NCBI GenBank assembly: GCA_029260755.1
Contig: JAJDCQ010000104.1
Location: 1-64,000 of the forward strand
Source: Planctomycetota bacterium
GTDB lineage: Bacteria > Planctomycetota > J058 > JAJDCQ01
Direction of reading: 5' to 3'
Length of the DNA stretch: 64,000 bases
Shown: positions 8,162 to 55,938 of the stretch, piece after piece
Layout: each line of letters opens with the position of its first letter
How positions within the stretch are numbered: the first letter of the stretch is position 1
The notes under the pieces: generated by a model
What the model was told of the DNA's origin: nothing
What the model saw: only the letters and a program-made list of their open reading frames with translations
The model's database searches: none
Position numbers and translations under genes: made by a program

Positions 8162-9295
8162 TCACCCGCCGGGGGTGAGCACCGCCTCGATCACGCGGCC
8201 GAGCGCCGTCCCGACGATGCCGAGGCCGACGACGAGCGTCGCCCCCAGGATCACCTCGGAGAGCCACGAGACCGCATCGTCGCCGTCGTCGGCCGCGCCG
8301 GCGGCCGCGGCGCCCTCTCGGTCGGCGGTCTCCTCGTCGGCGCCCGGCTCGTCCCCCTCCTCGCCGGCGATCGACTCCGCCCCCGCCGGCCCCTCGACGA
8401 GCACCTCGAGGACGGCCGTCACGTCCTGGCAGCGCTCGGTCGGGTCGCGCCGAAGGCAACGCTCGAGGAGACGAACGAGCCACGGCGGCGCGCGCCCGGC
8501 GACGGCGGCGGCGACCCCTCCCTCGGAGAAGACCGGACGCCCGAGCAGCGCCTCGAGCAGGACCGCCCCGAGCGCCCAGACGTCGGCCCGCGCATCGATC
8601 GACGCGCCGTGCGGCGCCCGGCTCCGTTCGGGTGGGCCGTAGGGCAGGACGTCGCTCGCCGAGGCGACGACCGCGGGCGGCGACCCCTCGAGCGAGGCTC
8701 CGTAGACGGAGAGGGTAACCTCGCCGTCGAGGCCGATGACGACCGTCTCCGGCCGGACGTCGCCGTGGACGAGCCCGATCGCGTGGAGCCGTGCGATCGC
8801 GCGGGCGAGCTGCCGCCCGAGCCGGACCGTCGCCTCGATCGAGAGCGGCTCGCCCCGCTCGAGGCGCTGTCGCAGCGTCTCGCCCGCCGCGCAGCGCCGG
8901 ACGATCCCGACCCGCCCGCCCTCGTGGACGACCGCCTCGGGCGCGGCGACCCGCGAGCTGGTGATGGCGCCGGCGAGCTCCGCCTCGTCGAGCAGGCGCT
9001 CCTCCAGGCGACCGCCCCGGAGCTCCGGCCACAGCCAGAGGATCACGACCGGCGAACCGCTGCGCTCGTCGATCGCCCAGCTCACCTCGCCCGCGTGCCC
9101 CCATGGAACCGCCGCGCTGGCGATCCCGTAGCCGCCGACGAGCGTCCCGGGCTCCGGGGCGCCGAGCGCCGAGGGGGGAGCCGACGACTCCCCGAAGGAG
9201 ACGACCCGATCCCCCGGACAGGGCCGGCCTGTCTCGGCCGTGACCGCATCGGCGTCCTCGAGGTCGAAGAGCGAGTGATCGAGTCTCGACACCAT
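8162..9295 (-). CDS. Membrane-anchored pseudokinase
   Basis: A 377-residue protein with a recognisable protein-kinase fold but without the catalytic residues. The beta-3 strand reads SPVVILWLW with no lysine, the catalytic loop is LVHGDVRPETVVI (HRD changed to HGD, Asn changed to Thr), and the DFG position reads VYG. Kinase C-lobe features remain: DVWALGAVLLEALLGRPVF and the RCLRRDPTERC helix. The C terminus has an acidic linker and one TM helix near the end (ILGATLVVGLGIVGTAL), a tail-anchor arrangement. Start at the ATG at 9295 is supported by GGAGGA at 9-nt spacing. The gene is convergent with the upstream kinase gene (10 bp between stops) and divergent from the next one. Likely an allosteric partner or scaffold for the flanking active kinases; this is inference. 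Confidence 0.85.
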   Translation of the reverse strand: MVSRLDHSLFDLEDADAVTAETGRPCPGDRVVSFGESSAPPSALGAPEPGTLVGGYGIASAAVPWGHAGEVSWAIDERSGSPVVILWLWPELRGGRLEERLLDEAELAGAITSSRVAAPEAVVHEGGRVGIVRRCAAGETLRQRLERGEPLSIEATVRLGRQLARAIARLHAIGLVHGDVRPETVVIGLDGEVTLSVYGASLEGSPPAVVASASDVLPYGPPERSRAPHGASIDARADVWALGAVLLEALLGRPVFSEGGVAAAVAGRAPPWLVRLLERCLRRDPTERCQDVTAVLEVLVEGPAGAESIAGEEGDEPGADEETADREGAAAAGAADDGDDAVSWLSEVILGATLVVGLGIVGTALGRVIEAVLTPGG

Positions 9296-9500
9296 GGCGA
9301 AGGTCCTCCGCGCAGACTCCATGGCAATTTCGGATCCAAACTCCCGCGTCTTCGGAACCGCCGTCGCCGCCGGCCCTTGCCGTCTTGCGCCCGATCGGGT
9401 GGTCCGCGCATCCTGCGAATCGGCACGGCAGCCTGCAGCAGCGGCGACCCCCGGGACGTCATCATCACTGCTGGCCACACCGGGGCGGGAGAGGCGCGAC

Positions 9501-12500
9501 GTGCCGATCGACGCGGCGAGACGCTACTGCAACCGCTGCGGCCTCGTCGTCGACGCTCCCGCGACGAGCTGCCCGCGCTGCGCGACCGCGCTCACCGCCG
9601 CGGATCCCTCCGGCGTCGTGACCGCGGCGCATCACGACCGGACGGTCCGGATGCCGAACCGACCGAGCAGCGGGGAGCGCGGCGCCGCCACCCGCGCCGC
9701 GATCACCCCGCCGGTCGACCACGACACCGATCGCTACACGCCGAGGCCGGGCGAGCCGCGCCGCGCCAGCGGCGAGCTCTCCGTTCCCCACATCGCCGCC
9801 GCCGGCGCGACCGACCTCGGTGAGACGGTCTCGTCGGCCGACGCCGAGGCGCGCTGGGACCCGTTCGAGAGCGGCGACCGTGAGCACCCGACCCGGCTCG
9901 GGCGCTACGAGATCCGCGGCGTGATCGGCCGCGGCGGGATGGGCATCGTCTACGAGGGCTGGGACGCCGGGCTGGAGCGGCGGGTCGCGATCAAGATGCT
10001 CGCCCAGGCGGGGCTCGCCGACGAGGACGACCTCCAGCGGTTCGTCCGTGAGGCCCGCGTCGCCGCGAAGCTCCAGCACCCGGGCATCGTGATGGTCCAC
10101 GAGGTGGGCGCGCACGACGGCCACCCCTACATCGTCATGGACCACGTCGAGGGCGAGAGCTTCGAGGAGCGTCTCCGGCGCGAGCGCGTCCCGCCCCGGC
10201 GGATCGCCGCGGTGATCCGCGACGTCGCCCACGCCCTCGAGCACGCGCACGAGCGCGGCGTGATCCATCGCGACGTGAAGCCGCACAACGTCCTCATCGA
10301 CCTCGAGGGACGAACGCGGCTGACCGACTTCGGCCTCGCCCAGGACGCGGCGACGATGCGGCAGATCACCCTGACCGGTCAGGTCATGGGGACGCCGTCG
10401 TACATGGCGCCGGAGCAGGCCGCCGGCGACAACCACGGTCAGGGTCCCCACACCGACGTGTGGATGCTCGGCGCCGTCCTCTACCGGGCGCTCGTCGGAC
10501 GGCCGCCGTACGAGGGGAAGACGCCGCTCGCGATCATCCAGAAGGTGCTCTCCGAGGAGCCGCGCGCCCCGCGCCAGGCTCGTCCTACGATCCACTCCGA
10601 CCTCGAGACGATCACGCTGCGCTGCCTCACCAAGGACCCGGCCGGTCGCTACCGGTCGGCGCGCGAGGTCGGCGACGACCTCGATCGCTTCCTCGAGGGC
10701 GAGACGATCCGCGCGCGCGCCCTCGGTCGGATCGAGCGGGTCGGCCGGTGGACGCGCCGCCGCCGCGTCCCGGTCACCGTCGTGGCGATCGGCGGCGTCG
10801 CGGCGCTCGTCGCGCTCGCGATCGTCGTTCGCGGCGCGGTCAGCTCGGCGACGAGGCGCGAGCGTCAGGAGCTCGCCGCCGCGGCGTCCTCCGCGGCCGA
10901 CGACGCGTTCAACGAGCTCCAGGGCCGCCGGCGGGCGATCGCCGCCGCGGAGGAGCGCGCGCCGCTGCCCCGCGACGACCGCCGCCGGCGCCACGAACGC
11001 CTCCTGGGCCTCGCCCTCGACGTCGTCCAGACCGCGCAGCACGCGGCGAGCCTCGCCGACGGAGATGCCCGCGCCCGGACCCGGTCCGCGTGGGTCATCC
11101 TGGCCGAGGTCGCGATCGGCGCCGAGCAGTGGAGCCTCGCCGAGAGCGCGATCGCGCGAGCCCGCTCGATCGACGCGGACAGCCCGCACCTGGCCCGCCT
11201 CGCCCGACACCTCGACGAGGCGCGCTCGGCCCGGGCGCGCGAGCGACAGCTCGTCGTCGAGGACGTCCTGACGAGGGCTCGTCGCGGCGAGCTCCGGGGT
11301 GACGTCGACCGCGAGCGCGCCCTCTTCGCCCTCGTCGGCGCCGGCGACGAGGCGACCGTCGCGCGCCTCGCCAGCGAGCTCACCGCGACGGCCGCGACCC
11401 TCCGCGACGCGACCGAGGCGTTCTACCGAGCCGCGGCCGCGCCGAACGCCGCGGAGGCGCGCGCCGGCGAGGAGCCGGTCACCGGGGCGGACGCGGCGAT
11501 CGCCTGGCTCCTCGGCCGCGGCGAGGTCGACGCCGCGACGCCGAGCGGTGAGGTCGCCGGCGCCGTCGCCGCGATCGAGCGGCGCGTCCTCGCCCGCGCG
11601 GCGCGCGAGGTCGCCCCGCCCGGCACGGTTCCCCGCTCGCTCGACGAGGTCGTCCGCGCACGTCAGCGGGCCGCCCTCGCCGAGACGGCCAGCCTCGCCC
11701 GGGTCTGCTGCGAGGCGCTAGGCCACATCGGAAGCGCCTCGCCCGAGGCGATCGACGCCCTCGCCGCCTACCTCGCGATCGAGGCCGACGACCGCCGCGC
11801 GGCGCGCGCCGCGATCGCGCTGTGCATCCTGGGCGGGGGCCGCGCGGAGCATATCGTCACGACCGCCCGCGGTCGGTTCGGCGCGGAGAGCCGGTTCTGG
11901 ACCGAGGTCGCCCCGTTCCTCGGCGAGACCGGCGTGACGACGGCCGACACCGCGGGCGAGCCGGGCGACGACCCCGGCGCCCTCCTCGAACGGGCGGTGA
12001 CGCTCGCCGCGAAGGGCGCGCCGGAGGAGGCCCTCGCCTCCCTCGACCGCGCCCTCGAGCTCGATCCCCGCCACGTCGCCGCGCTCCTCCGCCGCGCCGC
12101 GATCCGGAGCGAGCGCGGCGAGCTCACGGCCTCGCGCGCCGACCTCGATCGCGCCGTCGCCGCCGGGTCGGCCGACGCCGCGACCTGGACGGCCCGGGGC
12201 CGGCTCCGGCGGGAGATGGGCGACCACGCCGGCGCGATCGCCGACCTCGGCGAAGCGATCGAACGCGCGCCGGACGACCCGACGCCCTGGCAGGAGCGCG
12301 CGATCGCCCACCGCCTGATCGGCGACGGCCGACGGGCGATCGAGGACGCCGACCGGGCGGTCACGATGGCGCCCCGCTCGGCGTCCGCGCTCGTCACCCG
12401 GGCGCGCGTCCGCCGCCGCGCCGGCCTGGCGCAGGGGGCCCTCGAGGACGCGAACGCGGCGGCGGAGCTCGATCCCGAGCTCGCCGAGGCGTGGGCGCTC

Positions 12501-13445
12501 CGGGCCGAGGCGCGCCTCGACCTCGGCGACCTCGCCGGGGCGCGCGGCGACGCGACCCGGGCGATCGAGCTCGATCCTGACGACGCGATCGCGTGGGGCG
12601 TGCGGGCCGACGCGCGACGTCGGGCGGGCGATCTGGCCGGCGCCGTCGCCGACTACGATCGGGCGGTCGCCCTCCGTCCCGATCACCCGGGCTTCGTGAA
12701 CGACCGCGCGATCGTGCGACGCGATCAGGGCGACACGGCCGGCGCCGAGCGCGACTTCACCCGGGCGATCGAGCTCGACCCGAGTCAGCCCGGCGTGTGG
12801 GCGAACCGCGGCCTCGTCCGGCTCATGCGCCGCGACCTCGCCCGCGCGGAGGAGGATCTCTCCCGCGCGATCTCGATGCAGCCGGTCGACCCGATCCTCT
12901 TCACCCAGCGCGCAGTCATCCGCCGCGCGGCGAGGGACCTCGCCGGCGCCCTCGCCGACCTCGACCAGGCCGCCGGGATCGCCCCCGAGAACGCAATGGT
13001 GCTCCGCAACCGAGGTCAGGTGCGGGCCGACCTCGGCAAGCTCGACGATGGGATCCTCGACCTGGAGCGATCGGTGCAGCTCGACCCGAAGAACGTCCCA
13101 GGCTGGGCGCTGCTGGGGATGGCGCGCGCCAGCGCGGGCCGGAAGGCCGCCGCGATCGAGGCCTACGACCGGGCGATCGCCCTCGACCCGACCCACGCCC
13201 AGAGCTGGGTCGAGCGAGCCAGCACTCGCGCCTCCGCCGGCGACCTCGCCGGGGCGATCGAGGACGCGAGCCGCGCGATCGCGATCGTGCCGAGGCTCCC
13301 GCGCGCGTGGCTCGTCCGGGGGATGGCGCGCGCCGACTCCGGCGAGCCCGGGGCGGCGCGGGCGGACCTGGAGCGCTTCCTCGAGCTGGTCCCGGATGAC
13401 CCGCTGGCGAGGATCGCTCGAGGTCGGCTGGAGGATCTGCGGTGA
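9501..13445 (+). CDS. Zinc-ribbon Ser/Thr protein kinase with TPR array
   Basis: A 1314-residue kinase. The GTG start at 9501 has a good ribosome site (GGGAGAGG) and opens a four-cysteine zinc ribbon (Cys10, 13, 24, 27). A linker to about residue 130 follows, then an intact kinase domain (134-400): GRGGMGIVYEG, VAIKML, VIHRDVKPHN, LTDFGLAQD, GTPSYMAPEQ. One TM helix lies near 423-447. The rest is a helical region (450-830) and a long TPR array (830-1310, units like GDLAGARGDATRAIELDPDD). Compared with the kinase at 4318, order and spacing of modules match except for the added zinc ribbon, so the two look like paralogues. In-frame sequence upstream of 9501 to 9294 overlaps the pseudokinase start and is not needed. 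Confidence 0.92.
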   Translation: MPIDAARRYCNRCGLVVDAPATSCPRCATALTAADPSGVVTAAHHDRTVRMPNRPSSGERGAATRAAITPPVDHDTDRYTPRPGEPRRASGELSVPHIAAAGATDLGETVSSADAEARWDPFESGDREHPTRLGRYEIRGVIGRGGMGIVYEGWDAGLERRVAIKMLAQAGLADEDDLQRFVREARVAAKLQHPGIVMVHEVGAHDGHPYIVMDHVEGESFEERLRRERVPPRRIAAVIRDVAHALEHAHERGVIHRDVKPHNVLIDLEGRTRLTDFGLAQDAATMRQITLTGQVMGTPSYMAPEQAAGDNHGQGPHTDVWMLGAVLYRALVGRPPYEGKTPLAIIQKVLSEEPRAPRQARPTIHSDLETITLRCLTKDPAGRYRSAREVGDDLDRFLEGETIRARALGRIERVGRWTRRRRVPVTVVAIGGVAALVALAIVVRGAVSSATRRERQELAAAASSAADDAFNELQGRRRAIAAAEERAPLPRDDRRRRHERLLGLALDVVQTAQHAASLADGDARARTRSAWVILAEVAIGAEQWSLAESAIARARSIDADSPHLARLARHLDEARSARARERQLVVEDVLTRARRGELRGDVDRERALFALVGAGDEATVARLASELTATAATLRDATEAFYRAAAAPNAAEARAGEEPVTGADAAIAWLLGRGEVDAATPSGEVAGAVAAIERRVLARAAREVAPPGTVPRSLDEVVRARQRAALAETASLARVCCEALGHIGSASPEAIDALAAYLAIEADDRRAARAAIALCILGGGRAEHIVTTARGRFGAESRFWTEVAPFLGETGVTTADTAGEPGDDPGALLERAVTLAAKGAPEEALASLDRALELDPRHVAALLRRAAIRSERGELTASRADLDRAVAAGSADAATWTARGRLRREMGDHAGAIADLGEAIERAPDDPTPWQERAIAHRLIGDGRRAIEDADRAVTMAPRSASALVTRARVRRRAGLAQGALEDANAAAELDPELAEAWALRAEARLDLGDLAGARGDATRAIELDPDDAIAWGVRADARRRAGDLAGAVADYDRAVALRPDHPGFVNDRAIVRRDQGDTAGAERDFTRAIELDPSQPGVWANRGLVRLMRRDLARAEEDLSRAISMQPVDPILFTQRAVIRRAARDLAGALADLDQAAGIAPENAMVLRNRGQVRADLGKLDDGILDLERSVQLDPKNVPGWALLGMARASAGRKAAAIEAYDRAIALDPTHAQSWVERASTRASAGDLAGAIEDASRAIAIVPRLPRAWLVRGMARADSGEPGAARADLERFLELVPDDPLARIARGRLEDLR

Positions 13446-13527
13446 CCGCGCCCTCGAACGGGCGTTCCGCTTCCTGGAACAGCGGAACATGTGCATGGCA
13501 ATGAGCTCGCGAGCCTCCAGCTCGCAC

Positions 13528-13615
13528 TCCGCGTGATCCGCGTAATCCGCGGTTCCAACTCGTTGTTTGCTCTCCGCCGAGAGAACGAAACCGCGGATTA
13601 CGCGGATTGCGCGGA
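13528..13615. repeat. Hairpin element A (9-nt-unit arms, CGCGGATTN family)
   Basis: Left arm 13528-13556 and right arm 13587-13615 are reverse complements at 26 of 29 positions, separated by a 30-bp loop. Each arm is made of tandem 9-nt units of the form CGCGGATTN. The element lies between the kinase gene ending at 13445 and ackA. It belongs to the same family as the elements at 20309-20391 and 55808-55892. Confidence 0.8.
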
Positions 13616-13729
13616 CTGTTCCGGTCGGCGCCGAGTCCGCTCCGGAGATTCCGCCGTTCCTGGAACGACTCCTTGCCCCGCCTCTCGTCTCAGGGTTCTG
13701 TCAGGGTCCCGCCCCGCCCTCTCGGGTCG

Positions 13730-17198: not shown

Positions 17199-20015
17199 GT
17201 GTCCCTCAAGCCTGGAATGCAGCTCGGCCCCTACGTCGTCGAGAAGACGATCGGACAGGGCGGGATGGGCGCGGTCATGCGCGTCCGCCACGTCGAGACC
17301 GGCGGCGCCTACGCCCTCAAGGTGATCCTGAACGCGTCCGCGTCGAAGAACATCGACCGGGCGCTCGGCCGCTTCAAGCGCGAGGTCGAGGTGCTCGCCC
17401 GGATCGGCGGTCACCCGGGGATCGCGGCCGTCCACACGTGCGGACGAACCGAGCGGGGCCTCCCCTGGTACGTGATGGACCTCGTCGAGGGCGAGCCGCT
17501 CTCCGACCGCCTCCGGCTCGGACCGCTGCCCCCGCGCGACGCGGGGCGCCTCGTCGTCGAGATCGCCGAGGCGCTCGCCCACGTCCACGCCCACCGGGTG
17601 CTCCACCGCGACCTCAAGCCGGACAACGTCATCCTCGACGGCGTGACGGGGCGTCCGAAGCTCGTCGACTTCGGCCTCGCTTACGACGTCGCCGCCGATC
17701 GCCTCACCCTGACGGGCGAGATCGTCGGCACGCCCGCCTTCATGGCGCCCGAGCAGTGCCAGAGCTCGACCTCGGGCGAGGACGCGAGCGAGCCCGACGC
17801 CCGCACCGACGTCTACGGCGCGGGCGCCGTCCTCTACTTCGCCTTGACGGGCGAGCCGCCGTTCCACGGCAAGGAGCCGATGAACCTCGTCTTCGATGTG
17901 ATCCAGACGCCGCCCGTGCCCCCGAGCCGCAAGAACGCCGCCGTCCCGCGCGAGCTCGAGTCGATCTGCCTCCGCGCCCTCGAGAAGGAGCCCGCGGATC
18001 GCTACCAGACCGCCGCCGACCTCGCGCAGGACCTCGAGCGATGGCTCCGCGGCGAGTCGACCGACGCCGGCCGCCGCGGTCGGGCCCGGAGCAAGCGCGG
18101 CTGGCTGAAGGGGACGGCGATCGCGACCGGCGTCGCCGCCGCGCTCGTCCTGGCCGGCGCCTCCCTCATCCCGGGCCGCCGACCGACGGGCCGCCAGGAC
18201 CTGATCGCCCTCGAGGACGCCCTCGTCACGCGCGGCCATCTCACATCCGCGGAGATCGACGAGCTCGGTCGGATCGAGCGCGCGCCAGCGATCGCATCCG
18301 AGCCGGCCCTCGCGCGGCGAGCCGCCATCCTCGACTCGCTCGCGCGCCTGACCGAGCCGCGGGAGGCCGCAGCCGGCGCGAGCGCGACCATCGTCGTCGC
18401 CGACCGGGACGCCGCCCACGCGATCGCCCGACAGGTGCGCGCGACCGGCCGGGTCGACGCGGTCCTGCTCCGACGCGTCCGGCGGGCGCTCGTCGGCGCG
18501 GACCGTTACGACGCGCTCGCGCGGGTGCTGTTCGAGTCGCCGGCCGTGCCGCCCGACCCCGAGGATGCCGCCCGCGTCGCGACGGCGCTCGCCGCCGACG
18601 CCGACGACGCGATCCCCGACGACGACGCGGTGTTCGCGACGCTCCTCGCCGCGCGCATCGACGAGCCCACGCGGGGCCGGCTGCTCGCGCTCCGCGGCGC
18701 TCGGGCGCTCGCGCAGTCCGAGGCGGACGGGCTCGACGACTCGGACCGGTCGGCCCTCCGGGCTCGGGCCCAGGCGAGCCTCGCCGCGGCCCTCTCCGAC
18801 CACGGCGCGATCTTCGACGCGTCCGGCTGGCCGGAGTCGTTCCACCGCCACCTCCACCTCGCCTTCGAGGCCGCTCTGGACGAGCGCCTCGACGACGCGG
18901 CCGGGATCCTCGGCCTCCTCGCGCGCGCTCCGGACCGCGAGATCGTTCCGCCGGCCGAGGTGATCGGACGCCTCCATCGACGCCTCGTGTTCGGGGGTGA
19001 CGCGACGGCCGTCGATCCCCTCACGATCCGGCGGGGCGTCCTCATCGGCGCCTACCTCGATCGCCACCAGGCGTGGATCAGCCCGCCCTGGGAGCTCCGG
19101 AACAAGTCGTCCGAGTGGGTCGAGGAGATGGAGCGCCTCGCGGAGATCGATGCCCGCCGCGAAGCGGACCGGCGCGACCCGGCGGTGCTCGTCTTCCTCG
19201 CCCTCGTCCTCGAGAACGGCACGAGCGACCGTCCGGCGGTCTGGATCGCGGCGGCCCGCGAGACGCGCGTCGAGGCGGCGTGGCTCCACGCCCGCGTCGG
19301 GATGTTCGCCAACCGCCAGGAGCGATGGGACGCGGCCCGACGCTCGTACGCCCGCGCCTACGAGCTCGACCGCGCGCGGCCCCCGGGACGTCGCTCCCCG
19401 GGGACGACGAAGAGCTACGCCGAGCGTCTCCTCGGAGTGGCCAAGAGCGATCCCTCGGCGGATCTCGGCCACCTGGTCGAGGTCGCCCTCCAGGCGGCCG
19501 CCGATCAGACGGCGGCGGCCGGATGGCTCCGGGAGATCGGCGCGGCCGGAGGCGTCCCGCCCTGGCAGCTCTCCAACCCGAGCGGGATCGCTGCGTCGAT
19601 GCGCCAGGTCGCCGAGCATCTCCAGGAGCGCGGGCCGCCGCACTGCTGCGGCCCGGACGGCGACGTCATCGAGCGGATCGTCACGGCGGCCGACGCCCTC
19701 CTGTCGGACGAGCTCCTCGGCTTCAAGAACACGGTGAGCGAGGACACGGTGACCGACGGCGCGCTCCGCGGCGTCGTCGGGCTGCACCACGAGACCCACG
19801 GTCGCTTCCGGCCCGCTCTCGCCGAGATCGAACGAGCCGTCCGGGCCGAGCGCGACCGGACGCCGCTGTCGGAGTATGCCGAGGCGAACCGCCGCAAGAG
19901 CCTCATCTCCTGGCTCGAGCACCGCGCCCGGGTGCTCCGGGCGCTCGGGGAGACCGATCGCGCGAAGGCGGACGAGGAGGAGGCCGCCGCGCTCCGCGAG
20001 GAGAACGACGGCTAG
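17199..20015 (+). CDS. Membrane Ser/Thr protein kinase, ackA-pta-linked
   Basis: A 938-residue kinase. The catalytic domain starts almost at the N terminus (residues 10-285) with GQGGMGAVMRV, ALKVIL, VLHRDLKPDN, LVDFGLAYD and GTPAFMAPEQ, all catalytic residues present. A TM helix follows (about 305-328). The C-terminal 600 residues are helical and Ala/Arg-rich with weak TPR-like stretches (RSYARAYELDRARP) and no family I recognise. Start is the GTG at 17199, with an in-frame ATG at 17217 as alternative; neither has a strong ribosome site. The 48-bp distance from pta suggests co-transcription, so it may respond to, or modify, the acetyl-phosphate node; that is inference from position only. Confidence 0.9.
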   Translation: MSLKPGMQLGPYVVEKTIGQGGMGAVMRVRHVETGGAYALKVILNASASKNIDRALGRFKREVEVLARIGGHPGIAAVHTCGRTERGLPWYVMDLVEGEPLSDRLRLGPLPPRDAGRLVVEIAEALAHVHAHRVLHRDLKPDNVILDGVTGRPKLVDFGLAYDVAADRLTLTGEIVGTPAFMAPEQCQSSTSGEDASEPDARTDVYGAGAVLYFALTGEPPFHGKEPMNLVFDVIQTPPVPPSRKNAAVPRELESICLRALEKEPADRYQTAADLAQDLERWLRGESTDAGRRGRARSKRGWLKGTAIATGVAAALVLAGASLIPGRRPTGRQDLIALEDALVTRGHLTSAEIDELGRIERAPAIASEPALARRAAILDSLARLTEPREAAAGASATIVVADRDAAHAIARQVRATGRVDAVLLRRVRRALVGADRYDALARVLFESPAVPPDPEDAARVATALAADADDAIPDDDAVFATLLAARIDEPTRGRLLALRGARALAQSEADGLDDSDRSALRARAQASLAAALSDHGAIFDASGWPESFHRHLHLAFEAALDERLDDAAGILGLLARAPDREIVPPAEVIGRLHRRLVFGGDATAVDPLTIRRGVLIGAYLDRHQAWISPPWELRNKSSEWVEEMERLAEIDARREADRRDPAVLVFLALVLENGTSDRPAVWIAAARETRVEAAWLHARVGMFANRQERWDAARRSYARAYELDRARPPGRRSPGTTKSYAERLLGVAKSDPSADLGHLVEVALQAAADQTAAAGWLREIGAAGGVPPWQLSNPSGIAASMRQVAEHLQERGPPHCCGPDGDVIERIVTAADALLSDELLGFKNTVSEDTVTDGALRGVVGLHHETHGRFRPALAEIERAVRAERDRTPLSEYAEANRRKSLISWLEHRARVLRALGETDRAKADEEEAAALREENDG

Positions 20016-20072
20016 GAGCCGAGAGAAGGCTCACCTGCGGGCGGGTCAGTCCTTCTTCTCGCACGAACGGGG

Positions 20073-20215
20073 AACGATCCACAGATTTCACAGATTTCAC
20101 AGATTGGGAGTTGCCGAAGACGGTCCCTCGCCTCCGGCCGAGGTCCGCCCGCGTTCGGCAAGACCCGCGAGTCGCCCGCGGCGATCTGTGTCATCTGTGT
20201 AATCTGTGGATCGTT
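20073..20215. repeat. Hairpin element B (9-nt-unit arms, CACAGATTN family)
   Basis: Left arm 20073-20105 and right arm 20183-20215 are reverse complements at 29 of 33 positions around a 77-bp loop. Arms consist of tandem CACAGATTN units. The right arm runs directly into TTTTT (20214-20218), so on the plus strand it could end the transcript of the kinase gene finishing at 20015. It sits in a convergent intergenic region about 90 bp from element C, which has a different unit sequence. Confidence 0.8.
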
Positions 20216-20281
20216 TTTCGCGACGGCAATCGCACGCTCCTGTTCGAGGAACGAGAGTCTCGGGCGGAGCACCGCGACGCG

Positions 20282-20420
20282 TCGGCAATGGCTCGGCGAC
20301 GCCCGAGTCAATCCGTGTAATCCGCGAAATCCGCGGTTTCGTTCTCTCGGCAGAAAAACGGAACCGCGGATTCCGCGGATGACGCGGATTGCGAGCTGCC
20401 GACTCGGAGTTCATTGCCGA
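20282..20420. repeat. Hairpin element C with outer inverted repeat
   Basis: Inner arms 20309-20340 and 20360-20391 are reverse complements at 28 of 32 positions with a 19-bp loop; the units are CGCGGATTN. An additional perfect 9-bp outer inverted repeat, TCGGCAATG at 20282-20290 and CATTGCCGA at 20412-20420, brackets the element. Its left flank (about 40 bp) and right flank (GGATTGCGAGCTGCCGA) recur almost unchanged around element D near 55808-55892. Confidence 0.8.
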
Positions 20421-20447
20421 GGCGCGGGCTGCGGGGACGATCGCGGG

Positions 20448-21602
20448 TCAGATCTGCCCGAACAGGTGCAGATCCAGGTTCGAGGGCTTCGGCGGCGGCG
20501 CTCCCGTCGGCTCGACGTTGACCGCGAACTGGTGGTAGACCGCGTCCGCCGCGAGCGCGGGGAGGAGCAGCGTCGCCGTTCCCTTCGCGTTCGGGCGGAA
20601 GGCGCCGGCGAAATCGATCGGCTTCGGCTCGGCGTTGGCCATCGCCCACAGCGTGTAGACCTGCGCCGGTCCGACCTGCTTCAGGCCGTGGGCGAGGAGC
20701 AGCCCGCGCCCCGCGCTCCGGTCGTAGAAGAGGAACGCGACCGCATCGGGGTTGCGCTCGTCGTCGCCGTCGAGGCGGACGACCTCGACGCCCGGGTTCT
20801 GGATGAGGCTCTCGAGCTCCTCGAGCTCCTCGACCCGGTCGCGGGCGTCGTCCCGAGCCGCCTCGGCGGCGGTCAGGCGCGACCTCACGGACTCGCCCTC
20901 CTCGAGAAGCTCGGCGAGATCCCGCTCGGCCCGGGCGAGCTCCGCCTGCGCGGCGTCGCGGTCGCCGGCGAGCGCGGTGCGGACGCGGCCCAGCTCGGCC
21001 TTCGCCTCGTCGACCTCGCCCATCTTCAGGACGAGGCCGACGAGCAGCCCGGCGGCGACGAGGATGCTCGCCGCCGCGACGATCCAGCCGGCGCGCGAGG
21101 GCGGCGGTGGCGTCGCGACGACCACCGGGGGCGCCGCGGGTCGAGTCGGCGGCGGCGCGGGCGCCGGGCTCGGCGCCTTCGGCGCGAGGCGGAGCTCCTC
21201 GTCCGAGATGGGCTTCACCGCCGGCTTCGCGTCGGGCTTCGCGGGGACGGTCTCCCCATCGACCGCGGGCGCCTTCGCAGCCGGCCGCTCGTCCGGCTTC
21301 GCCGCCTTCGGCGCGGCCCGCTGCGCGATCGCCTTCGCGAGCGACTTCGCCTTGGGCGGCGGCAGCGGCCGGTTCTCGGGGCGGCCGATCGCCGACAGGA
21401 GACGCATCTTGACCGCGTCCGCGGGCGGAACGGGAGGCACGTCGACCGTCAGGAGCGTGATCTCCTCGCGGGTCGTCGCGAGGACGCCCTCGCAGATCCG
21501 GCAGCCCGCCTCGAGGTGGCTCTCGAACGCGGCGAGGTCGGCGCCGTCGAGGGCGCCGATCGCGTAGATCTCGGCTCGGTCGGTCCAGGGCGCGTGACTC
21601 AT
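20448..21602 (-). CDS. Membrane anti-sigma factor, RskA-like
   Basis: A 384-residue regulator of the adjacent ECF sigma factor. The start ATG at 21602 overlaps the sigma-factor stop (ATGA), giving translational coupling. The N-terminal cytoplasmic anti-sigma domain (1-65) has an H-x4-C-x2-C zinc-binding-like motif (HLEAGCRIC), one residue longer than the standard H-x3-C-x2-C. A Pro/Lys/Ala-rich linker follows, one TM helix (about 165-190, WIVAAASILVAAGLLVGLVL), a coiled-coil segment (about 200-255, AQAELARAERDLAELLEEGES), and a C-terminal extracytoplasmic RskA domain (QVYTLWAMANAEPKPIDFAGAF). Such proteins hold the sigma factor inactive until the outer domain is cleaved or altered. Confidence 0.9.
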   Translation of the reverse strand: MSHAPWTDRAEIYAIGALDGADLAAFESHLEAGCRICEGVLATTREEITLLTVDVPPVPPADAVKMRLLSAIGRPENRPLPPPKAKSLAKAIAQRAAPKAAKPDERPAAKAPAVDGETVPAKPDAKPAVKPISDEELRLAPKAPSPAPAPPPTRPAAPPVVVATPPPPSRAGWIVAAASILVAAGLLVGLVLKMGEVDEAKAELGRVRTALAGDRDAAQAELARAERDLAELLEEGESVRSRLTAAEAARDDARDRVEELEELESLIQNPGVEVVRLDGDDERNPDAVAFLFYDRSAGRGLLLAHGLKQVGPAQVYTLWAMANAEPKPIDFAGAFRPNAKGTATLLLPALAADAVYHQFAVNVEPTGAPPPKPSNLDLHLFGQI

Positions 21603-50525: not shown

Positions 50526-52448
50526 TCAGGAGCCGGATGGCGGTTTCGGCCGGGAGCTCTCTGCCGGAAGCGGGTCGGGTGCGGGCGCCGCCTCGGGCCC
50601 CGTCTCGGGCGCCGTCTCGCCCTCCGTTTTCGCGGGCGCGACGAGGCGGATGCCGACCCTCGGGTGGGCCAGATCGGGTCGAAGGAAGTGGCGGAAGGTG
50701 GCCGTTCCGCTGCCCTTCAGCTCGGGGTCGTATCCGCCCCGGATCACCCGCGCGTCGCCGCGGCCCGGACCGCGGGGATCGACGTCGGAGCAGCGCGCAT
50801 AGGCGTCCGGAGCATACCAGTCGGCACACCACACCCAGACCGGGCCGATGAGCGCGAGCGCCCCGAACGGCGACGCGAGCTCGGGCCGAGAGGCCGCATC
50901 GACCTCGGCGCGCGTCGCGATGCTGCTCGGCCCGCCGCTCGTCGCCTCGTGAAGCTGCCGGCGCGCGTCCTCGTCGTCACCCCACGGGAACAGGCGCTCG
51001 TCGCCGCCGCGGGCCGCCTTCTCCCACTCCGCCTCCGACGGGAGGCGCGCGTCGCACCACTCCGCGAACGCGCGCGCCTCGTCCCAGCTCACGTTGGTGA
51101 CCGGGAGGTCGAGGTCGACGCCGGCGAGGTCGAGCACCTCGCTCCGTCGCCAGCCGCCGCGGCGCTCGACCCAGTGGCGCGGCGGACGCGCGCCCGTAGC
51201 GCGAACGAAGACGAGCCACTCGTGGCCGGTGACGAGCCGTCGGTCGATCCGGAAGGCGTCGAGCCCGATGCGCCGGGCCGGCCGCTCGTCGGGCCGACCC
51301 GCGGCGCGCCCCAGGGTGAACGGGCCGGCGCGCACCTCGACGGTGTCCGGGCGCGCCCGGACCGAGTCGGGCGTCAGCAGCTCGGACGGCCGCTCCCGCC
51401 GCGCCTCCGCGGGCCTGGGGACGCTGGGAGCCTGCCCGGGCCCGCTCAGGATCGCGAGGAGGTCCCCCCGAAGCGACGCGACGTCTCGATAGCGGCGCGC
51501 TCGATCCCGCGCCATGGCTCGCTTCACGACCAGGTCGAAGCGGGGGTCGAGGGTCGGATCGATCTCGCTCGGGAGCTCGAGCCCGAGGGGAACTCGTCCC
51601 GTGAGGAGCTCGAAGAGGAGCGCGCCGAGCGAGTAGACGTCGACCTGGACGTCGATCGTTCCCTCCCGCTCGAGCACCTCGGGAGCGAGGTAGGGGAGCG
51701 TTCCCGCCCGTCGAGCGAGGCCACGCCGCCGCGTCGTGCCGGCCCCGTCCGCGCCGTCCTCGTCGTCCTCGTCGTCGAAGGTGCGGAACGTCTGCGAGTA
51801 GATCAGGGCGCGGCCCGCGGCACCGTCGTCGGACCCGTCGCCGTCGGACTCGTCGGCCACCTCGGCGACGAGCTCCGCGATGCCGAAGTCGGTGAGCTTC
51901 ACCTGACCGTCGGCGCGCATCAGGATGTTCTCTGGCTTGATGTCGCGATGGACGACCCCGCGCCCGTGCGCGAACGCGACCGCGTCGAGGAGCTGCGAGA
52001 AGATCGGGCGGAGACGCTGCCGCGGCAGAGATCCCCGGCCGAGAACGTCGCGGAGGTTTCCGCCCTCGACGAGCTCCATGACGACGGCGATCCGGTCGAG
52101 GACCGGGATCACTTCGTGCGTCAGGACGATGTTCGCATGGACGAGCCGTCGTTCGAGGCTGACCGCGTCGCTGCTCGACTTCGCGCGGACGAGCTTGACG
52201 GCGACCTCCTCGCCCTCCGCCGGGCCGCTCGTGGACTGCTCGCCGCCGAGCTCGGGATCCTCGCTGGCCGCCAGATCCGGCGCCCGCCCGCGCACGCGCG
52301 CCCGGTAGACCTCGCCGAAGGCGCCCTGCCCGATCTGCTCGAGCGGCTCGTAACGCGTTGCCGCGAGGGCTCGCGCGAGAAGATCCCGGTCGATCGGGGG
52401 TAGCTCTCGGGGCACGATCGGATTCCGATGGTCGAAGGAAGGCACCAT
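50526..52448 (-). CDS. Ser/Thr protein kinase fused to FGE-sulfatase domain
   Basis: A 640-residue fusion. An intact Hanks kinase (about 32-310) has GQGAFGEVYRA, VAVKLV, VVHRDIKPEN, LTDFGIAEL and GTLPYLAPEV. A linker leads to a formylglycine-generating-enzyme/sulfatase-modifying-factor domain (about 375-610): VRAGPFTLGR, PVTNVSWDEARAFAEWCDARLPSEAEWEKAARGG, RVIRGGYD, TFRHFLRPDLAHPRVGIRLV. The domain lacks the paired active-site cysteines of true FGE as far as I can see, so a ligand-binding role is more likely than sulfatase activation. No TM helix is visible. The ATG at 52448 lies inside a perfect extended -10 element, so translation may instead begin at GTG 52415. Confidence 0.9.
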   Translation of the reverse strand: MVPSFDHRNPIVPRELPPIDRDLLARALAATRYEPLEQIGQGAFGEVYRARVRGRAPDLAASEDPELGGEQSTSGPAEGEEVAVKLVRAKSSSDAVSLERRLVHANIVLTHEVIPVLDRIAVVMELVEGGNLRDVLGRGSLPRQRLRPIFSQLLDAVAFAHGRGVVHRDIKPENILMRADGQVKLTDFGIAELVAEVADESDGDGSDDGAAGRALIYSQTFRTFDDEDDEDGADGAGTTRRRGLARRAGTLPYLAPEVLEREGTIDVQVDVYSLGALLFELLTGRVPLGLELPSEIDPTLDPRFDLVVKRAMARDRARRYRDVASLRGDLLAILSGPGQAPSVPRPAEARRERPSELLTPDSVRARPDTVEVRAGPFTLGRAAGRPDERPARRIGLDAFRIDRRLVTGHEWLVFVRATGARPPRHWVERRGGWRRSEVLDLAGVDLDLPVTNVSWDEARAFAEWCDARLPSEAEWEKAARGGDERLFPWGDDEDARRQLHEATSGGPSSIATRAEVDAASRPELASPFGALALIGPVWVWCADWYAPDAYARCSDVDPRGPGRGDARVIRGGYDPELKGSGTATFRHFLRPDLAHPRVGIRLVAPAKTEGETAPETGPEAAPAPDPLPAESSRPKPPSGS

Positions 52449-53982: not shown

Positions 53983-54028
53983 CTTCACGTACCGACTCCC
54001 GCTCAGCAGGCCTGAGATGGAGAGAGGG

Positions 54029-54123
54029 CTCACGCAAAGGCGCAAAGGCGCAAAGGAGCCCTGCCGGATCCACCGTCTCGGCCTTGAGCAACGCCCCTTT
54101 GCGTCTTTGCGCCTTTGCGTGAG
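54029..54123. repeat. Hairpin element E (9-nt-unit arms, GCGCAAAGG family)
   Basis: Left arm 54029-54056 and right arm 54096-54123 are reverse complements at 27 of 28 positions around a 39-bp loop. Each arm is three tandem 9-nt units of GCGCAAAGG type. It lies between two lipoprotein genes on the plus strand. The unit sequence differs from elements A-D but the architecture is the same. Confidence 0.85.
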
Positions 54124-54188
54124 TTTCGTTCGCCTGTTCCAGCCAGGAATCTCGCTGGACTGCGCGAGATCTCGGAGCAGGCACGTCG

Positions 54189-55695: not shown

Positions 55696-55779
55696 GATGG
55701 CCACCTCTCCGGTCACCGCAGACCCATGGGGCGAAACGACCCTGTCGCCGAGACCTGGAGAACCCGGCCGCAGCGACGC

Positions 55780-55920
55780 ATCGGCAACGGTTCGGCGACG
55801 TCCGAACCAATCCGCGTAGTCCGCGTCATCCGCGGTTCCGTCTCTCGGCGGCGAACGAACGGAACCGCGGATTGCGCGGACTACGCGGATTGCGAGCTGC
55901 CGAGGTCCCGGTTCACTGCC
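55780..55920. repeat. Hairpin element D (copy related to element C)
   Basis: Arms 55808-55839 and 55861-55892 are reverse complements at 30 of 32 positions with a 21-bp loop; units are CGCGGATTN. About 40 bp of left flank (from 55773) match the left flank of element C with about six differences, and the right flank GGATTGCGAGCTGCCGA is identical, so C and D are copies of one dispersed element. It lies between the TPR gene stop and the GNAT gene. Confidence 0.82.
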
Positions 55921-55938
55921 GTCGACCGAGGGTCGCCG

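Follow-up and report, generated by a model that had tools for sequence, protein, structure and literature searches.

Gene-Free Hairpin Elements with Common Palindromic Ends in a Planctomycetota Genome

Introduction

The R boxes of integron attC sites read RYYYAAC/GTTRRRY, and unpaired bases in the folded attC set the choice of strand. Transposition of the IS200/IS605 and IS91-type elements is single-stranded and involves terminal folding, a short fixed cut sequence and no target duplication. MITEs of DDE transposons are non-autonomous, compact and dispersed elements with terminal repeats. REP and REPIN elements and their RAYTs (GTAG and CGTC families) are described (PMC3733652) as short intergenic hairpins present in hundreds of copies and placed at the 3′ ends of genes or between convergent genes.

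In our study, a window of 64,000 nucleotides (contig JAJDCQ010000104.1, positions 1 to 64,000, of the Planctomycetota assembly GCA_029260755.1) and its source genome were analysed. The repeats found there share form, copy number and placement with the REPs, and single-strand mobility is possible for them too. They differ from the REPs in lacking the GTAG/CGTC tag, in carrying fixed palindromic ends on unrelated hairpins and in forming ordered head-to-tail arrays, and the RAYTs of the source genome appear to go with another repeat. With integron arrays they share unlike units placed head-to-tail, one short site between the units and a fixed orientation, and strand-specific folding is conceivable. 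However, the units are gene-less, lack the GTTRRRY core and lie at hundreds of dispersed loci with a full site at both outer ends, and no integron integrase reached the cut-off. The units also have the general anatomy of MITEs, but the palindrome is repeated directly at the two ends, with A as the central base of each, neighbours have one end in common and reading the edge lists by eye revealed no target duplication. Absence of target duplication, terminal folding and a short fixed sequence are features shared with the IS200/IS605 and IS91-type elements, whereas no related transposase was found linked to the units and the full site is present at both ends. The system acts partly like integron cassettes and partly like REPs, and by the tests made it is a member of neither.

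Elements of the Window and Their Limits

Elements C and D of the window are two worn copies of an element of about 195 bp. The likeness of their flanks, described in the first-pass annotation, was confirmed. On the left, about 42 bp aligned with six differences (GCGACGCGTCGGCAATGG... in C and GCGACGCATCGGCAACGG... in D), and on the right ACGCGGATTGCGAGCTGCCGA was identical in both, or 21 bp once the end of the arm was included. The 9-bp outer inverted repeat of C was exact. Elements A (13.5 kb), B (20.05–20.24 kb) and E (54.03 kb) were found to belong to the same system as C and D. The features of the window are as follows.

13470..13480, minus strand: other terminal palindrome of A, one mismatch (CTTCCTGGAAC on the plus strand)
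13495..13637, minus strand: element A (class C)
13656..13666, minus strand: terminal palindrome of A, exact (GTTCCTGGAAC on the plus strand)
20054..20237, plus strand: element B (class B, CACAGATT hairpin), nhmmer 178 bits, head-to-tail with C across the palindrome
20242..20252, plus strand: left terminal palindrome of C, which is the B/C junction (GTTCGAGGAAC, one mismatch to GTTCCAGGAAC)
20255..20429, plus strand: body of C (class C, CCGCGGATT hairpin), nhmmer 156 bits, model positions 3–183 of 184
20282..20290, plus strand: outer inverted repeat of C, left arm TCGGCAATG, conserved in the class consensus
20309..20391, plus strand: inner hairpin arms of C, words with a 9-bp period
20412..20420, plus strand: outer inverted repeat of C, right arm CATTGCCGA
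54028..54131, plus strand: element E (class E, CGCAAAG hairpin), palindromes not intact
55769..55926, plus strand: element D (class C), model positions 18–178 of 184

The right palindrome of C is worn away, and D is an older copy in which both palindromes are lost. B and C make up a two-unit array across 20242–20252, between convergent genes: a kinase gene that ends at 20015 and, on the other strand, an RskA_C-domain gene whose end is at 20448. No Rfam family matched the window at the gathering threshold. The window contains three Ser/Thr kinase genes (9294–13445, 17199–20015 and 50526–52448); of these, one contains numerous TPR repeats and another an FGE-sulfatase domain.

The likeness of the flanks is not confined to C and D. 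A search of the own genome with positions 20240–20440 gave 123 places at E ≤ 0.001, with 40 of the 385 first-look candidates scored. The other best places covered the query from about position 2 to 199 with 82–86% identity, far above chance, and the identity between copies on different contigs reached 97.9%. C and D are dispersed, as had been claimed for the pair, but they are only two of hundreds of copies in the genome.

The elements are quasi-palindromic, and minus-strand copies must be turned before alignment. The alignment of genomic copies that had been proposed for setting the boundaries was made with 30 of the best copies, and GTTCCAGGAAC was found at both ends. The unit had been described as about 140 bp long and larger than the hairpin. 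It does exceed the hairpin, with conservation running past the earlier limits to an 11-bp palindrome on both sides, but 140 bp is too short: the length is about 190–206 bp. Nor does the 9-bp inverted repeat mark the ends, as background conservation was reached only outside GTTCCAGGAAC, 40 bp farther left. Column identity over the 47 class C copies of nearly full length was 0.92 in one site and 0.88 in the other; the body had 0.89, and just outside the sites it fell to 0.42–0.44. The elements are mobile-like and non-autonomous on their anatomy. Copy number, sharp ends, the high identity between copies on different contigs and too little room for a gene support this part of the first-pass annotation; the movement itself we infer.

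Terminal Palindrome and Hairpin Classes

The palindrome GTTCCAGGAAC contains 11 bp, or 13 bp when the flanking Y..R is counted. Written as GTTCCWGGAAC, it was found in 230 exact copies in the 12.26-Mb genome, against a single copy of the reversed control CAAGGWCCTTG. Genome-wide, 40 pairs of exact sites were 185–215 bp apart and 19 pairs were 111–141 bp apart, whereas the control gave 0 for both distances. A sample of 1.63 Mb, picked for units or sites, contained 108 of the 230 exact sites. All 108 abutted an element, 43 of them on both sides. A solo exact site was found in 0 of 108 cases, so the sample holds no trace of a precise excision that leaves one site. An autonomous copy, with two sites around a gene, was not seen by eye among the listed sites of this sample (108 of 230 exact).

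These counts bear on the explanation that the 11 bp are the target-site duplication of a site-seeking insertion. Direct copies on either side and N+1 copies in arrays would fit the duplication of a fixed target, but hundreds of prior sites would be required, and the nine same-order relatives carry only 0–4 sites each. We set this explanation aside as very improbable because no exact site is empty (0/108).

The central base of the site was the same at both ends in 36 of the 38 pairs of the sample and in 38 of the 40 pairs 185–215 bp apart genome-wide. It agreed with the strand of the element in 144 of 151 cases. As for the terminal inverted repeats of MITEs, palindromic ends are inverted except at their centre, and the centre shows direct copies (36/38). 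The two units with inverted central bases, among the 40, were located at C26:29266–29485 and C214:180416–180619 of the own genome (contig:position).

Four classes of unrelated bodies were found with the same ends. The units of the sample were located with class profiles trained on site-to-site units, so that the training units have matching ends by construction; the bodies had been separated from the sites before profile building. The units were counted in the 1.63-Mb sample, whose densities are biased by the way it was picked.

Class C: CCGCGGATT words, about 195 bp, 116 units in 1.63 Mb
Class B: CACAGATT, about 208 bp, 39 units in 1.63 Mb
Class E: CGCAAAG, about 126 bp, 28 units in 1.63 Mb
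Class F: CGCAGAG, 192 bp, 6 units in 1.63 Mb

Nine other 20-kb stretches, picked without regard to units but on contigs where some had been located before, gave 12 units in 180 kb. Shortened sub-families still carried the sites. The first reading had missed that B and E, unrelated hairpins, carry the same ends. As at least four unrelated bodies carry the same ends, we take the palindrome to be what the mobilising enzyme would recognise.

The ends of several contigs agree with these limits. Contigs C1, C19 and C23 each have a site whose last base is base 141 of the contig, C113 and C200 open with a CGCAAAG unit that extends to base 141, and the last base of C59 and C78 is the last base of a site. 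This would be expected of copies that agree as far as the site and diverge beyond it; base 141 presumably reflects the word length of the assembler.

A further hairpin family of the own genome (C252:163709, C88:34233, C7:91830 and others) contained CACGGAG words, and some copies had TCGCC..GGCGA as their outer ends. The GTTCC site was absent from the listed copies of this family.

Arrays of Units

The 1.63-Mb sample contained 61 neighbouring pairs of units. One site was present between the neighbours in 52 pairs, none was recognisable in 9, and two were present in 0. Both units were on the same strand in 58 of the 61 pairs, and 29 of these 58 pairs were of mixed classes (B>C in 11, C>B in 9, E>C in 3, and others). 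Adjacent C-C pairs (n = 20) showed a median identity of 0.873; for random C pairs the median was 0.849 (p = 0.02). Adjacent copies are hardly more alike than random ones, which points mostly to separate insertions; a few pairs are almost identical and resemble tandem duplications, and the other pairs resemble separate insertions. Sites that are already present seem to draw in further units, and the incoming unit seems to be oriented.

The units are probably non-autonomous mobile cassettes, inserted in a set orientation at their own palindrome by an enzyme acting in trans. Each unit consists of a body that folds into a long hairpin, with a copy of the palindrome GTTCCAGGAAC at either end, both copies being oriented alike. 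Units would be copied by the enzyme supplied in trans and could enter an existing site, whose central base would set the orientation. After such an insertion N bodies would have N+1 sites, and arrays would grow in this way. At a fresh locus both sites would come with the unit, and no target duplication would be made.

Genomic Placement and Edges

With genes called by a simple GC-based script, 56 of 99 arrays were found between convergent genes and 7 of 99 between divergent genes, whereas the background was 222 and 199 of 1030 gene pairs, respectively. The midpoint of the unit fell within a predicted ORF in 30 of 189 cases, against 161 expected at random. In tandem gene contexts, the same strand as the genes was used in 14 cases and the opposite strand in 22, with no clear strand preference.

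Such placement, the strong hairpins and an 11-bp palindrome that resembles a protein site would suit immobile, inherited 3′-end signals under selection, such as terminators, mRNA ends or sites of nucleoid proteins. We consider this improbable, since hundreds of near-alike, sharp-ended copies lie at unrelated loci, the other 391 genomes of the phylum lack the double site, the site is no better conserved than the body, and the tandem contexts show no clear strand preference.

At the edges towards unique DNA, the outer half of the palindrome was kept, with 0.90 on the left and 0.88 on the right among edges matching at least 7 of 11 positions. These were 40 of 46 left edges and 60 of 73 right edges; by chance, the best match in random 38-mers was at least 7 in 717 of 4000 and at least 8 in 133 of 4000. 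Both halves of the palindrome are therefore present at unique edges, and plain site-specific integration of a circle with one site, which would leave half-sites at a new locus, fails as an explanation of such loci. Target-site duplications, the search for which had been recommended, were not found when the edge lists, which include only sites with at most one mismatch, were read by eye; this is a reading and not a systematic count. In 4 of 44 left edges, the site is immediately preceded by GTTC (C252:21391, C41:36221, C48:37202 and C167:59373 of the own genome).

Fold of the Single Strand

As single-stranded DNA, units of class C (locus L005), class B and class E were predicted to fold end to end, with both sites paired with each other. 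The z value was −7.0 for class C L005, −9.5 for class B, and −10.9 and −10.8 for class E. The paired sites formed five pairs, an A.A mismatch and five pairs. Both sites having the same orientation, A stands opposite A at the centre; copies in inverted orientation would pair at every position. The A.A mismatch (T.T on the other strand) may mark the strand that is used. In the fold of window element C, where the left site is mismatched and the right site is lost, only the outer repeat and the arms were formed, and the sites were unpaired (z −6.6). The fold of window element E also contained no paired sites (z −7.1). Covariation of pairs was nearly absent, with a two-sided change in 1 of 35 pairs, and is uninformative either way because the arms hardly vary.

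Candidate Enzymes

Three Y1_Tnp genes were found in the genome. Repeats of the GGGGTCAGG type were present at all three RAYT loci (L111, L112 and L113), and a GGGGTCAGG hairpin was also found at C7:118690. No unit or site of the GTTCCWGGAAC family was found at the three loci. The RAYTs appear to be the partner of the GGGGTCAGG family here, as an ordinary REP/RAYT pair. One Y1_Tnp protein was scored further, and its best match was to the model of the REP-associated transposase, below the cut-off. To our knowledge, the mixing of classes around one common site is not a feature of REPs. That the units are of the REP/REPIN type and are mobilised in single-stranded form by a RAYT (Y1_Tnp) is quite unlikely: the hairpin form, the convergent or 3′ placement and the high copy number are like those of REPs as PMC3733652 describes them, and Y1_Tnp genes are present, but the RAYT loci carry another repeat, and the ends are the palindrome GTTCCWGGAAC in all four classes with no GTAG/CGTC tag.

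Ten integrase-family matches were found in the genome, and nine tyrosine recombinase proteins were scored. Several scored well against Xer models, whereas none of the nine reached the TIGR02249 cut-off for integron integrases (best 130 vs. 265 bits); the genome is 88% complete, and this absence is not final. The stretches examined around the recombinases contained neither site nor unit, with one exception, located at the end of a contig some 6.5 kb away from a recombinase gene. An alternative, in which gene-less, integron-like cassettes are recombined at the palindrome by a Xer-like tyrosine recombinase, would draw on these genes, on the unlike units standing head-to-tail with one short site in common, on the single asymmetric base that sets the orientation and on the unpaired position inside the site of the folded strand. 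It is unlikely, given the scores and the surroundings of the recombinases; moreover, the attC core GTTRRRY is absent, the core here being GTTCCAG/CTGGAAC, and the edges of arrays carry full and not hybrid sites.

No mobilising enzyme was found. The 11-bp site and the oriented array provide a clean handle for finding it.

Occurrence in Other Genomes

GTTCCWGGAAC was not enriched in 57 relatives, none of them of the same genus or family, which contained 0–12 copies each (0–4 in each of nine relatives of the same order). Among 392 genomes searched in the phylum, the source genome alone contained the short double-site pattern. The control palindrome CAAGGWCCTTG was frequent in the relatives G001, G007, G032 and G056, with 27, 17, 13 and 14 copies, respectively. 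In viral contigs the double CGCAAAG hairpin pattern was found 0 times; the double-site pattern occurred in 5 viral contigs and was taken as chance, the intervals being without these hairpins by eye. A literature search, most subscription journals being outside its coverage, listed no description of these repeats, and sequence strings gave unrelated matches only.

The hairpin words were found more widely than the site. CGCAAAG arms were also present in the same-order genomes G003 and G009, and the C-type arrangement was found in Anaerolineales and Anaerolineae MAGs, Verrucomicrobia LW23, Asticcacaulis and Prevotella; the examined stretches of these other-phylum genomes contained no GTTCC site. 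In G009, the CGCAAAG hairpins adjoined a different end, GGCTGTCGCTGA, with 24 copies against 5 of its control. The examined loci L254–L277 (five from G007, the rest from G009) contained 25 occurrences of GGCTGTCGCTGA, of which 8 were beside CGCAAAG hairpins, 5 of these with a matching inverted end. GGCTGTCGCTGA was present as a shared end both on CGCAAAG hairpins and on other repeats (L222, L226, L230 and L254–L277; G009 and G007).

There are hints, which we offer as a lead only, of a general rule by which lineage-specific ends are joined to hairpin words common to several lineages. In its fullest form, the preferred reading of mobile cassettes would have a recombinase or transposase read the folded palindrome with its mismatch and insert interchangeable, gene-free hairpins in a set orientation, each lineage having its own ends (GTTCCWGGAAC, possibly GGCTGTCGCTGA) around words shared across phyla. 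We put this forward tentatively, as a doubtful extension. If the units are mobile cassettes, they would show that a modular build is possible in small hairpin repeats of bacteria, with interchangeable bodies between ends that are specific to a lineage and read by a mobilising enzyme.

Tandem hairpins, with no GTTCC site in the examined stretches, were observed in the Anaerolineales MAG M10 (L173 and L181), where they have a period of 112–113 bp and contain the same words (AATCTGTG/CGCAGATT).
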